Positions 19,078 to 29,080 of a DNA stretch of 43,232 bases are shown here, piece after piece; position 1 is the first letter of the stretch; each line of letters opens with the position of its first letter. This DNA is from Akkermansia muciniphila (lineage in GTDB: Bacteria; Verrucomicrobiota; Kiritimatiellia; RFP12; JAAYNR01), in NCBI GenBank assembly GCA_945870025.1, contig CAMBQN010000021.1, forward strand, positions 1-43,232. The letters run 5' to 3'. The notes beneath the pieces are model-generated. The model was not told the DNA's origin and searched no databases. It was given only the letters and a program-made list of their open reading frames with translations. The position numbers and the translations under genes were made by a program.

Positions 19078-19542
19078 TCAGGCAATAAATGTTCTGCGAC
19101 TGACTTTGGACCATGCTTCCATGAACTTGGCTGATGCCTTGGCCATAATGTGGCCATTCTGACGGATGTCAGCCTCCATATAGAAAAGCGGAGGTAACGA
19201 TTTAGCCAGCCGGGCACTAACGATGGCGGGGCGGCTCACGATTATGGGTTTTAGGAACCTCACGTTCAGCTCTCCCGTCAGCGCAGCTCGTCCGTGCGCG
19301 AAGAGACAGTTCGTCATCGCGCTATCCAGAAGCGCGGCGATGACGCCGCCATGCAGATAGCCAGTGTAACCCTGGTATAGTCGGTCACATGGGAACAGTG
19401 CTTCCACGTGCCCATCGGCATGCGTGTTGAACGCGAGCCGAAGTCCCTGCGGATGGTCGGCGCCACAGAGCATGCACTGCGAGTGCAGACTTGCCTGAAG
19501 CGCCGCCATGGCCGCCGTTGTGGGCTCAGTGATCACAGACAT
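19078..19542 (-). CDS. PaaI-like hotdog thioesterase
   Basis: A 154-residue thioesterase-fold protein with the PaaI signature G-Y-L-H-G-G-V-I-A-A-L-L-D-S-A-M and an N-terminal C-M-L-C-G motif. It would hydrolyse an acyl-CoA. ATG 19542 overlaps the end of the Mrp-NifX gene by 17 bases, and an in-frame ATG at 19509 is an alternative. It is the last gene of the ORP-like operon; why a thioesterase belongs there is unknown, and the C-x2-C could bind a metal. Confidence 0.8.
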   Translation of the reverse strand: MSVITEPTTAAMAALQASLHSQCMLCGADHPQGLRLAFNTHADGHVEALFPCDRLYQGYTGYLHGGVIAALLDSAMTNCLFAHGRAALTGELNVRFLKPIIVSRPAIVSARLAKSLPPLFYMEADIRQNGHIMAKASAKFMEAWSKVSRRTFIA

Positions 19543-20806
19543 TCGCCCCGGATACCAGCGTGCCTGCCAGATACTGAGCGACGAGTTGTTCCGGCGCTTC
19601 GGCGGGTGCGCCCACCACAACCTTGATACTGTTTTCCGCAAACAGGTTCTGCGCGCGGCTACCCATGCCACCGGCGATGATGACTGTTGCGCCTTGTTCG
19701 TGCAACCAGCGAGGCAGAACGCCCGGTTCGTGCGGCGGGGGTGTCACCATTCGCTTGCCTGTGAGCTTTTTCGTTTTCTCGTCCACGTCAAGCAGTGCGA
19801 ACTGGTCGCAGTGTCCGAAGTGCATGCACAGTTTGCCTTCGGCGATCGGTATGGCGATTCTCATGGGTGTGTTCTTCCCTTCGTTTGTTGTGTTTGGTGT
19901 TTGGTTTGTTGCGATCTTGCCTGAAAGCGCCAGTATCGGCGCGATGACATGTTCGAAAGCCTTGGCTGTTTCCGTCCGGCTGTAGTGATAGACAAACGGG
20001 GTGCCGGCGTCACAGGCCTGTCCAACCGCAGGATCTATGGGAATGCGCCCAAGAAATGGCACGCCCATGTCCGCAGCCATCCGTTCGCCGCCGCCGGACT
20101 TGAATATGTCCGTAAGTTCGCCGCACTTGGGGCAGACGAAGCCGCTCATGTTTTCGACGACCCCGAGGACCGGAAGATCCATCTGGTGGCAGAAGTTGAT
20201 CGACTTGCGCACATCGGCGGTGGCCACATCCTGCGGGGTTGTGACGATCACGGCGCCATCCACGGGCGCGGCCAGTTGGCAGACGGACAATGGTTCGTCG
20301 CCGGTACCGGGAGGCGAGTCGATGATCAAGTAGTCGAGATCGCCCCAATCGACGTCCTTGAGAAACTGCTTGATGACGGTCATTTTCATCGGTCCGCGCC
20401 AGATCACAGCATCGTCGCGGTCCCGTAAAAGGAACGCGATGGACATCACTTTGAGTCCAGCATGCGCGACCGGAAGGATTTCGCCGTCCTTGGTTTGCAC
20501 GTCGGCGTCTTCCAGATGCAGCATCTTGGGAATGCTCGGCCCGTGGATATCCACGTCCAGGAGGCCGACTCGCTTGCCGGCCAGGGATAGGGAAATCGCC
20601 AGGTTAGCTGCCACCGTGCTCTTGCCCACGCCACCCTTGCCGGACATCACCAGAATCTTGTGTCGAATGCGCTGCAACCGCTCCTCAAGAACTACCTCGT
20701 CAAGAGCGTCGTCGGGACTATTTGGAGCCGCTACGTGCGCAGCATCACAGGTAGCGTGTTTGTGCGATTGTCCTTGTCCACAGCCACATTTGTCATTCTT
20801 TGCCAT
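19526..20806 (-). CDS. Mrp/NBP35-type Fe-S carrier ATPase fused to a NifX-like domain
   Basis: A 426-residue fusion. After a Cys-rich lead (C-G-C-G...C), the P-loop G-K-G-G-V-G-K-S-T (residues 56-64) and the Mrp blocks D-V-D-I-H-G-P-S, W-R-G-P-M-K, D-S-P-P-G-T-G-D-E and N-M-S-G-F-V-C-P-K-C-G identify the Fe-S cluster carrier family; C-P-K-C is the bridging cluster site. From about residue 312 a NifX/NifB-type dinitrogenase-cofactor domain follows (M-R-I-A-I-P...H-F-G-H-C-D-Q-F). The ATG has AAGGAGAAG upstream, and the gene starts 16 bases after the MBL-fold gene. In Desulfovibrio ORP clusters an Mrp ATPase and an ORP NifX protein are separate; here they are covalently joined. Confidence 0.93.
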   Translation of the reverse strand: MAKNDKCGCGQGQSHKHATCDAAHVAAPNSPDDALDEVVLEERLQRIRHKILVMSGKGGVGKSTVAANLAISLSLAGKRVGLLDVDIHGPSIPKMLHLEDADVQTKDGEILPVAHAGLKVMSIAFLLRDRDDAVIWRGPMKMTVIKQFLKDVDWGDLDYLIIDSPPGTGDEPLSVCQLAAPVDGAVIVTTPQDVATADVRKSINFCHQMDLPVLGVVENMSGFVCPKCGELTDIFKSGGGERMAADMGVPFLGRIPIDPAVGQACDAGTPFVYHYSRTETAKAFEHVIAPILALSGKIATNQTPNTTNEGKNTPMRIAIPIAEGKLCMHFGHCDQFALLDVDEKTKKLTGKRMVTPPPHEPGVLPRWLHEQGATVIIAGGMGSRAQNLFAENSIKVVVGAPAEAPEQLVAQYLAGTLVSGANVCDH

Positions 20807-20822
20807 GTCGTCTTCTCCTTGT

Positions 20823-27616: not shown

Positions 27617-27634
27617 AGTCGCCGATTCGCGACT
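27617..27634. promoter_or_regulatory. Inverted repeat, candidate activator (UAS) site
   Basis: AGTCGC-N6-GCGACT is perfect, about 90 bases upstream of the -24 box. That is a normal place for an enhancer-binding-protein site. It also lies 34 bases after the regulator stop, but no T-run follows, so a terminator is less likely. Confidence 0.4.
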
Positions 27635-27667
27635 ATGTGCCGAAACGAGAGGCGCGCTTGCGCGACA

Positions 27668-29080
27668 CTACCTGGGCTTGTCCCCAATCACCCGCTTTTG
27701 CCCCCGCGAACGACCGTCCTTCTCTGGAAGCTCAATCCGCAAGGCATTGATCTTGCGGAAGAGCGTGCTCTTGTGCAGTCCGAGGGCGCTGGCGGCGGCG
27801 AGGCGGTTGAAGCCATGCTGTTCCAGGGCCGTACGGATGGCCTGCGCTTCGGCGACGCGGGTCTGCGCGGCAATGGTGTCGCCGGCCGGAGCCGGAGTTA
27901 CGGCTGGTTGACCGGTGAGTTCAGGCGGCAGGTGAACGCGCTCGATCCTTCCCGCGCCGCAGAGCACAAAGGCCCGCTCGATGATGTTCTCCAGTTCGCG
28001 CACATTCCCGGGATAGTCGTGCGCCATGAGCAGCGCCATGACGTCCGGGGCCACACCGGCGACCAATTTACCCTGACGTCGGTTGAAGCGGGCGACGAAG
28101 TGCTCGACGAGGAGGGGGACATCCTCCTTGCGCTTGCGGAGCGGAGGCAGGTCCAGTTTGACGACGTTCAGGCGATAGAAGAGATCCTCGCGAAAGGCGC
28201 CCTTGCGGATCAGCGCGGCCAAATCGCGATGCGTGGCGGCGATGATGCGTACGTCGGCATGCCGCGTCTGTGTGCCCCCGAGCGGTTCGTAGGTCCGCTC
28301 CTGCAACACCCGCAGCAGGCGCACCTGCATGGCCGGGCTGATGTCGCCAATCTCGTCCAGGAATACCGTGCCGCCCTCGGCCAGCGCGAAGCGGCCGGGC
28401 TTGTCGGCCGCGGCCCCCGTGAACGCCCCTTTCACGTAGCCGAACAACTCGGATTCCAGCAGCGTGTCTGGCAAGGCACCGCAGTTGACCGGCACGAACG
28501 GCTTGTTCTTGCGCGGGCTGAGGGTGTGGATGGCGCGCGCCAGGAGTTCCTTGCCTGTGCCGGTTTCACCGTGAATCAGGACGGTTGCCTCACTGGGGGC
28601 AATCTGCGGCAGGAGTTCGCAGATCCGGCGCAACGCGGCGCTGCGGCTAATCAAGTCGCCTATCTGGCACCGGCCTTCGAGTTCTTTGCGCAGTTCCTCC
28701 ACCAGGCTGAGGTCCCGAAAGGTCTCCGCACCGCCAATGATGCGGCCGCGTTCGTTGTGGAGAATGGCGGTAGAGAGAGAAATGGGGATTCGCCGGCCTT
28801 CGGCATTCACGATGTACCCGGACTTGTTGACGATGGGTTTGCCGGTCTTGACGGTGTGCCGAAGGGCGCAGTCCGCCTCGCACATGCTGGCGCGGAACAC
28901 ATCGGAGCAGGTCTTGCCGATGGCGTCGCGCCGACGAATGCCGGTAATGGTCTCGGCGGCGCGGTTGAACGAGGTGATACGCCAGTCGGCATCCACAGTG
29001 AACACGCCGTCCGAAATGCTTTCCAGTATGCTTGCGGCACCTGTACGGAGCGCGCCCTCCTTCTTTGTTCTATGTACCAT
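27668..29080 (-). CDS. PAS-domain sigma54-dependent activator
   Basis: A 470-residue enhancer-binding protein. A PAS domain (about 15-130) holds a Cys pair in F-R-A-S-M-C-E-A-D-C-A-L-R, which I suspect senses redox state or metal. The AAA+ domain has Walker A G-E-T-G-T-G-K-E (171-178), the sigma54-contacting loop G-A-F-T-G-A (218-223) and Walker B T-V-F-L-D-E-I-G, and a Fis-type helix-turn-helix ends the protein (A-A-S-A-L-G-L-H-K-S-T-L-F-R-K-I). It sits directly upstream of the NifX genes, as the sigma54 regulator DVU2106 lies between the two ORP operons in Desulfovibrio vulgaris, and likely drives the promoter at 27511-27527. Confidence 0.95.
   Translation of the reverse strand: MVHRTKKEGALRTGAASILESISDGVFTVDADWRITSFNRAAETITGIRRRDAIGKTCSDVFRASMCEADCALRHTVKTGKPIVNKSGYIVNAEGRRIPISLSTAILHNERGRIIGGAETFRDLSLVEELRKELEGRCQIGDLISRSAALRRICELLPQIAPSEATVLIHGETGTGKELLARAIHTLSPRKNKPFVPVNCGALPDTLLESELFGYVKGAFTGAAADKPGRFALAEGGTVFLDEIGDISPAMQVRLLRVLQERTYEPLGGTQTRHADVRIIAATHRDLAALIRKGAFREDLFYRLNVVKLDLPPLRKRKEDVPLLVEHFVARFNRRQGKLVAGVAPDVMALLMAHDYPGNVRELENIIERAFVLCGAGRIERVHLPPELTGQPAVTPAPAGDTIAAQTRVAEAQAIRTALEQHGFNRLAAASALGLHKSTLFRKINALRIELPEKDGRSRGQKRVIGDKPR

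Follow-up and report, generated by a model that had tools for sequence, protein, structure and literature searches.

An orange-protein-type operon with two ferredoxin-ATPases and predicted regulatory DNA sites in a member of the Kiritimatiellia

Introduction

Counterparts of the locus analysed here are the orange-protein (ORP) genes of Desulfovibrio vulgaris, which, according to PMC6345978, are controlled by sigma54; the same paper describes that MrpORP transfers Fe-S units to Orp3/Orp4 in vitro and localizes mainly at one cell pole, that the ORP proteins are putatively involved in cell division, and that an Orp8-type ORP carries a Mo-Cu-S cluster. A second point of comparison is IssA, in which a NifX-fold domain is joined to a cationic Gly-rich tail and which stores iron sulfide (PMC5524996). 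The locus lies in a stretch of 43,232 nucleotides (nt), here called the window (contig CAMBQN010000021.1, positions 1-43,232, assembly GCA_945870025.1), from a source labelled Akkermansia muciniphila (GTDB Kiritimatiellia; RFP12; JAAYNR01) with a genome of 59 contigs and 2.76 Mb that is 81% complete. In the window, fourteen minus-strand open reading frames (27476-19078) lie downstream of a PAS-AAA-HTH sigma54 activator (29080-27668).

To our knowledge, the function of the orange-protein complex is still open. Judged by sequence, the locus is an ORP-type operon, as the assignments of its ORP and MrpORP indicate, and its gene set, motifs, ATPase fusions among relatives and conserved DNA sites are described below. 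We suggest that the ORP homologue, MrpORP and two ferredoxin-ATPases probably act jointly to put electrons and Fe-S units into metal-sulfide clusters predicted on the NifX-fold proteins of the operon.

Results

A preliminary description had placed fourteen minus-strand genes behind a PAS-sigma54 activator and had taken them for a larger relative of the ORP genes of D. vulgaris. Open reading frames were indeed found at about that place, and an ORP, an MrpORP and tandem ferredoxin-ATPases are all present. The genes at the center of the argument are the following (lengths in amino acids, aa):

27063..27476, minus strand: NifX1, 137 aa, NifX fold (Nitro_FeMo-Co) with MPGCC and a Cys/Arg-rich tail
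26704..27066, minus strand: NifX2, ORP homologue, 120 aa, no cysteine (Nitro_FeMo-Co)
22893..23750, minus strand: MinD1, ferredoxin-inserted P-loop ATPase of Orp3/Orp4 type, 285 aa (CbiA/ParA and Fer4)
21644..22543, minus strand: MinD2, ferredoxin-inserted P-loop ATPase, 299 aa (ParA/CbiA barely above threshold, and Fer4; P-loop GKGGTGNT without Lys)
19526..20806, minus strand: MrpORP, fusion of an Mrp ATPase and a NifX domain, 426 aa (ParA and Nitro_FeMo-Co; NF041136 565 bits, cut-off 450)

The best solved-structure match of NifX2 is D. gigas ORP (2wfb, E 4.3e-23), and MrpORP, which scores above the NF041136 cut-off, carries the motifs described for MrpORP. MinD1 and MinD2 each combine CbiA/ParA with two Fer4 domains and conserve eight Cys, which places them in the Orp3/Orp4 type by domains rather than by alignment to the D. 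vulgaris proteins. An ORP-type sigma54 activator with a predicted palindromic site at the operon is likewise present by sequence. Two divergent operons around the activator, a further ORP feature, were not found: all genes lie on one strand behind the activator, which we treat as a difference in layout and not in a defining part of the ORP machine. From NifX1 to the last gene, which encodes a PaaI-like protein, neighbouring genes are spaced by -22 to +65 nt, with three overlaps of 4 nt and three of 16-22 nt, and this spacing suggests a single transcript for the fourteen genes; the gap between activator and NifX1 is 191 nt. Terminator-like patterns between 18400 and 30000 number 4 against 11.4 in shuffles, with one on the minus strand, within the operon. 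A nitrogenase cofactor reading is not favoured, as the NifX domains found in this 81% complete genome are these three only; NifDK was not searched for.

MinD1 and MinD2 are fused as a single chain in 4 of 8 relatives, and a fused ATPase is encoded in G024, a relative from the same order. Of 8000 sequences scored in a search with one fused chain, 2410 were relatives at E 1e-30, and the best 120 of these span the whole fusion. A Cys seven residues past the switch-II Asp was found in all aligned proteins (66 of 66 MinD1 and 75 of 75 MinD2, counted without fused chains and proteins of <241 or >339 aa). The nitrogenase Fe protein has a ligand Cys at an equal distance from the Asp (Asp125, Cys132), and two Cys per subunit hold its bridging [4Fe-4S]. 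Searched by pattern, the switch-II Cys is present in 76/77 MinD1 and 79/83 MinD2, the five misses being one fragment and four pattern misfits, and each half of the fused chains has a NifH-like switch-II Cys. Both ATPase types keep the eight ferredoxin Cys, and the P-loop Lys is present in 77/77 MinD1 and 82/83 MinD2 with the MinD2 of the window as the sole exception. In a fold search with a structure model of the fusion (pLDDT 90, pTM 0.89), the top match was BchL for the first half and MinD/ApbC for the second, and Fe proteins reached a Z of ~22 with either half; fold families missing from the search results carry no weight. An insertion of ~8 residues past the P-loop helix of MinD2 (22440-22470) contains ggttcgacaggctca, which resembles a common interspersed repeat; the insertion is also found in the congeneric locus G001 and is diverged in G008.

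The remaining nine genes of the operon encode the following proteins:

26212..26655, minus strand: CGGC-domain protein, 147 aa (Pfam/NCBIfam CGGC)
25978..26175, minus strand: GR65, Gly/Arg-rich cationic protein, 65 aa, 43% Gly, isoelectric point (pI) 12; its DUF5320 match is sub-threshold (21.6 bits against 27)
25559..25951, minus strand: DUF5320 protein, 130 aa, a clear match, with a Gly/Arg/Met-rich first half (residues 1-70, pI 12)
25116..25493, minus strand: PNPOx-fold protein, 125 aa, with a weak likeness to HupZ
24856..25068, minus strand: double-CxxC protein, 70 aa, Cys pattern also in loci L035 and L042
23774..24871, minus strand: DAHP synthase, 365 aa (Pfam/NCBIfam), alternative start 24859
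22540..22914, minus strand: C_GCAxxG_C_C protein, 124 aa
20823..21647, minus strand: MBL-fold hydrolase, 274 aa (Lactamase_B)
19078..19542, minus strand: PaaI-like hotdog thioesterase, 154 aa (4HBT)

Pfam and NCBIfam support the labels that the preliminary description had given to the genes; only for the double-CxxC protein of 70 aa did Pfam give no match, and its Cys pattern is kept in the two other loci. A structure model of the CGGC protein (pLDDT 83) had no match in the PDB at E <= 0.001.

To follow the gene set, 89 loci were compared, comprising the window, eight relatives and the best 80 of at least 532 confirmed named contig loci, among them loci of the cultivated Pontiella sulfatireligans and Propionivibrio limicola. 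Partners, named after Pfam, were counted in same-strand runs with MinD by a greedy gene caller; runs break at overlaps and contig ends and the counts are lower bounds (the automatic run of the window ended at MinD1, leaving its C_GCAxxG, MBL, Mrp and PaaI genes uncounted). By this count NifX is found in 81 loci, DUF5320 in 47, Mrp in 43, MBL in 32, radical SAM in 25, PaaI in 19, DUF89 and SAM methyltransferase in 17 each, TrmO and the activator in 14 each, NifU-like in 13, DUF134 and FAD oxidoreductase in 11 each, CGGC in 10, PNPOx and C_GCAxxG in 5 each, double-CxxC and a ZIP-type match in 3 each, DAHP synthase in 2 and DUF202 in 1. Densities per 100 kb inside the runs and outside, in flanks that may themselves contain operon genes, are 9.6/1.9 for DUF5320, 4.9/1.6 for MBL, 3.8/0.3 for radical SAM, 2.9/0.9 for PaaI, 2.8/0.3 for DUF89, 2.1/0.5 for TrmO, 2.0/0.9 for NifU and 1.5/0.5 for CGGC; DUF202 stands at 0.2 on both sides. 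Although not enriched by density, the activator lies directly ahead of operon genes in 24 of the 89 loci. A core of NifX, DUF5320, tandem MinD and Mrp, often with MBL and PaaI, is common to many phyla.

The locus of the congeneric G001 contains only NifX1-NifX2-CGGC-MinD1-MinD2-MBL(-NifX)-PaaI, with its activator at the edge of another contig; DAHP synthase, PNPOx, double-CxxC, C_GCAxxG, GR65 and DUF5320 are absent from the run. It follows that the core is old and that the extras of the window are late or optional. Among the 58 other genomes of the genus, family and order, 8 have a full-length MinD2 relative (E < 1e-80); at E 0.001 any match is found in 44/59 genomes, the further matches being mostly short and over the ferredoxin part. 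In the congeneric genome an MBL-NifX domain fusion was observed (L034:3416-4654), at a place that has no Mrp part of MrpORP. The G008 operon (L035:5145-10788) has ketoacyl synthase III, biotin-synthase-like radical SAM, NifU_N and DUF89-type proteins where the window has PNPOx and DAHP synthase.

These comparisons bear on how much of the operon is one system. The conserved gene set expected in the preliminary description held for the core and failed for DAHP synthase, PNPOx, double-CxxC and C_GCAxxG, which are optional; its further suggestion of a larger relative with extra redox and metal-binding parts is not supported in that form, since these four occur in 2, 5, 3 and 5 of the 89 loci, respectively, as lower bounds, and are all absent from the same-genus locus. 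As the extra parts are mostly optional, we see no distinct larger system. It could then be argued that there is no single functional system at all and that unrelated genes such as those for DAHP synthase, the thioesterase and PNPOx have accreted around a known ORP core, in line with the six genes missing from the G001 run and with the three DAHP synthases, including the operon copy, found in the source genome. However, MBL, PaaI, DUF5320 and CGGC are found again in different phyla, with densities 3 to 5 times those of the flanks, and we consider loose accretion quite improbable. The locus is more than a chance grouping, as its core recurs in the 89 compared loci. For DAHP synthase itself the case as a functional part is weak (2/89 loci, with copies in G008 and G001 on other contigs) and it is probably a passenger.

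The partner genes also speak to the idea, raised in the preliminary description, of a cell-division scaffold, in which MinD-like ATPases would place the complex or the septum. Support comes from D. vulgaris, where the ORP proteins are putatively linked to cell division and MrpORP is found mainly at one pole (PMC6345978). Against NCBI cut-offs of 201.75 for TIGR01969 (archaeal MinD) and 212.9 for TIGR01968, however, MinD1 scores 66.7 and 36.2 bits and MinD2 49.5 and 38.3; MinC and MinE are not among the fourteen genes, and the recurrent partners in the 89 loci are proteins of cofactor type, including radical-SAM, methyltransferase and NifU-like proteins. On the low MinD scores and the partner genes we reject the cell-division reading, leaving it a very slight probability.

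An Arg/Cys-rich tail with an MPGC motif was found in 30 of 170 NifX-only proteins, one per locus in 30 loci, and 28 of the 30 tails have a pI >= 9; the window NifX1, which carries such a tail, was missed by the gene caller in this count. NifX-DUF5320 fusions occur in 7 proteins of the 89 loci. Together, the NifX1 tails and these fusions suggest an IssA-like make-up that is partly spread over separate proteins, a likeness from which we claim no membership. Triple fusions of NifX, DUF5320 and ferredoxin were observed in planctomycete-type loci (L111:497-1390, L118:7112-7987). In 11 loci (L039, L046, L048, L067, L081, L085, L092, L093, L096, L115, L118), Gly/Arg-rich sequences that end in a double CPxCG zinc-ribbon-like pattern adjoin NifX, and in L046, L048, L081 and L115 such a sequence is fused to NifX1.

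This make-up would also suit an iron-sulfide store of the IssA type, in which NifX1, GR65 and DUF5320 would nucleate and hold a thioferrate-like polymer that the ATPases and MrpORP merely fill and empty. IssA itself joins a NifX-fold domain to a tail that is cationic and Gly-rich (PMC5524996), and the Cys/Arg tail of NifX1, the pI of GR65 and the NifX-DUF5320 fusions can be likened to this. NifX2, however, is nearer to ORP than to other NifX structures, the tail of the window NifX1 is short, and an Orp8-type ORP is reported with a Mo-Cu-S cluster (PMC6345978), and so we regard a store as unlikely.

The sigma54 control proposed in the preliminary description agrees with the signals in the sequence. 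Its gene list did not contain DUF134 and DUF202, which lie on the same strand just upstream of the activator, DUF202 16 nt from the activator and DUF134 43 nt from DUF202. The regulatory features are:

29870..29887, no strand: predicted DUF134-type operator palindrome TATGAACATACGTTCATA, overlapping a sigma70-like pattern (29896-29868)
29548..29841, minus strand: DUF134 helix-turn-helix (HTH) regulator, 97 aa (PF02001, 77.5 bits)
29097..29504, minus strand: DUF202 protein, 135 aa (PF02656)
27668..29080, minus strand: PAS-sigma54 activator-Fis HTH (enhancer-binding protein, EBP), 470 aa, with GAFTGA; identity 89% to G008 and 86% to G024
27617..27634, no strand: predicted EBP binding site (upstream activator sequence, UAS) AGTCGCGAATCGGCGACT, from placement and conservation
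27512..27527, minus strand: predicted sigma54 -24/-12 promoter TGGCACGCTTCGTGAT, with a non-canonical -12 (GTGAT instead of GTGCT)

The palindrome GTNGC-N6-GCNAC is present without mismatch in 19 of 24 stretches between activator and operon, the same stretches from which it was derived. When its own stretch is shuffled, the site of the window has a p of 0.0025; for the fuller pattern, 0.33 occurrences are expected in the window as a whole, so that it is not rare there. For a separate set, 30 activator loci were collected from 288 genomes of the phylum, and the window, two loci already used and one locus that has the site and is truncated at a contig end were excluded. In this set the palindrome is exact in 8/12 loci with NifX, MinD, Mrp or DUF5320 downstream, as matched within the sequence stretch examined, versus 1/14 without (Fisher p 0.003). 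Patterns of the sigma54 -24/-12 type reach p <= 0.02 in 18/26 stretches, the -12 sequence GTGAT is common to the window, G001, G008 and G024, and the source genome encodes rpoN. A genome-wide regulon was rejected: GTCGC-N6-GCGAC occurs in 6 places versus 26 for the reversed control, and the other five places are probably due to chance. A second palindrome, CGTGAT-N9-ATCAC(A) (27494-27520), overlaps the -12 element, and G008 has a similar one.

For DUF134, a consensus, TATGANCATATGNTCATA, was built from three loci. The 89 loci contain 14 matches to it at <=3 mismatches, of which 5 belong to the loci used to build it and 3 are intragenic, versus 4 in one shuffle. In the source genome it occurs once at <=2 mismatches, preceding DUF134-DUF202-activator. 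Thirty DUF134 loci of the phylum, of which 27 could be placed, were then examined with a loosened gene pattern, a first pattern having caught 2/30 (one with the site). The consensus lies 80-400 nt upstream of the conserved helix codons in 17/27 loci including the window, that is in 16 of 26 others, five of these 16 being at 3 mismatches and some coming from one genus; the set contains one further match elsewhere, and the rate in shuffled sequence is 0.0015 per locus. The region, including the pattern overlapped by the operator, has no excess of sigma70-like patterns (4 versus 2.9 in shuffles). Mutual exclusion of EBP and DUF134 is not significant in the 89 loci, both being present in 2 (Fisher p 0.5).

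Downstream of the operon lies a HEPN and nucleotidyltransferase (MNT) gene pair (17687-18398), a pairing usual for toxin-antitoxin pairs.

Discussion

Combining the gene set with what is described for D. vulgaris and IssA, we infer the following scheme, in its chemical steps as well as in the metal, the switches and the pairing within this genome: (i) MrpORP would load both MinD1 and MinD2 with [4Fe-4S], a transfer reported in vitro for its D. vulgaris homologue; (ii) MinD1 and MinD2 would pair, their ATP turnover gating low-potential electrons in the manner of the nitrogenase Fe protein; (iii) NifX2, as an ORP without Cys, would hold a metal sulfide non-covalently, and the electrons would go into metal sulfide on NifX2, NifX1 and the NifX domain of MrpORP; (iv) the cationic tail of NifX1, GR65 and DUF5320 would provide a Gly/Arg-rich matrix to which anionic metal sulfide binds, a role proposed for the IssA tail; and (v) CGGC, C_GCAxxG, PNPOx, double-CxxC, MBL, PaaI and DAHP synthase would be accessories. 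Control would be exerted in two predicted tiers, in which DUF134, at its own operator, acts on DUF134-DUF202-EBP and EBP, at the palindrome, switches the operon on via sigma54.

Several observations weigh against this scheme. Each ATPase has two additional near-invariant Cys (64 and 63 of 66 in MinD1; 72 and 69 of 75 in MinD2), none of which could be placed as the second ligand of the Fe protein. Fe proteins and MinD/ApbC are nearly tied in Z for both halves of the modelled fusion, and the fold alone is undecisive. In the P-loop of the window MinD2 (GKGGTGNT) the Lys codon reads AAC (Asn) at 22499-22501, a difference of a single base, either genuine or a sequence error; if it is genuine, the missing Lys makes ATP use by this MinD2 doubtful. 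The NifX1 tail of the window has ~30 aa and a pI of 9.3 as compared to 70 residues and 10.7 in IssA. The runs are not enriched per 100 kb in C_GCAxxG (0.8/0.5), FAD oxidoreductase (1.7/1.1) or the activator (2.8/3.3). Finally, the -24/-12 pattern of the window is not significant on its own (p 0.12). The rival explanations rank in the order IssA-type storage, loose accretion and cell positioning, and we continue to favor joint delivery of electrons and Fe-S units to NifX-fold proteins.

More generally, and only tentatively, anaerobes of many phyla may possess a nitrogenase-free, Fe-protein-like reductase in which a MinD1-MinD2 heterodimer, present as one chain in some Kiritimatiellia, pumps low-potential electrons into a polynuclear metal sulfide on NifX/ORP scaffolds in a Gly/Arg-rich matrix, a design as in IssA split over several proteins, with a DUF134 operator and a sigma54 activator as its switches; we would give this wider proposal a rather low probability. 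The ORP core is already known. The present analysis worked out an activator site shared among loci, an operator for DUF134, the single-chain ATPases and the fusions of NifX with DUF5320, for which a limited check of titles and abstract openings in the literature found no prior description. The radical SAM, NifU-like and DUF5320 partners together with the one-chain ATPases and IssA-like tails point to metal-sulfide assembly or storage and not to division. The two predicted DNA sites, common to several phyla, offer a direct route to the signals that induce the operon, and DUF134 gains a predicted operator.

Several known systems can be compared with the operon. Unlike the nitrogenase Fe protein and BchL, the ATPases have two inserted [4Fe-4S] ferredoxin motifs and consist of two different subunits or a single fused chain, and the fourteen genes include no nitrogenase-type catalytic partner. 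With the Mrp/ApbC/Nbp35 Fe-S carriers the operon shares the N-terminal domain of MrpORP, and the MinD2 half is near ApbC 8zkc, whereas the C-terminal NifX domain of MrpORP and the inserted ferredoxins of MinD1 and MinD2 set it apart. As in IssA (Pyrococcus furiosus PF2025, the thioferrate protein), a NifX-fold domain is combined with cationic Gly-rich sequence. IssA has both in one chain, with a tail of ~70 residues, whereas the window has a tail of ~30 aa and Gly/Arg-rich parts that are mostly separate proteins, such as GR65; fused forms are found in relatives only. The closest likeness is to the D. vulgaris ORP system. Both have MrpORP and an ORP NifX protein together with two ferredoxin-MinD ATPases, and in both a sigma54 activator is accompanied by palindromic sites (PMC6345978, PMC3897727). 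In place of two divergent operons the window has a co-directional run of 14 genes, and it adds a second NifX with a cationic tail, CGGC, GR65, DUF5320, MBL, PaaI and other genes, with DUF134 upstream.

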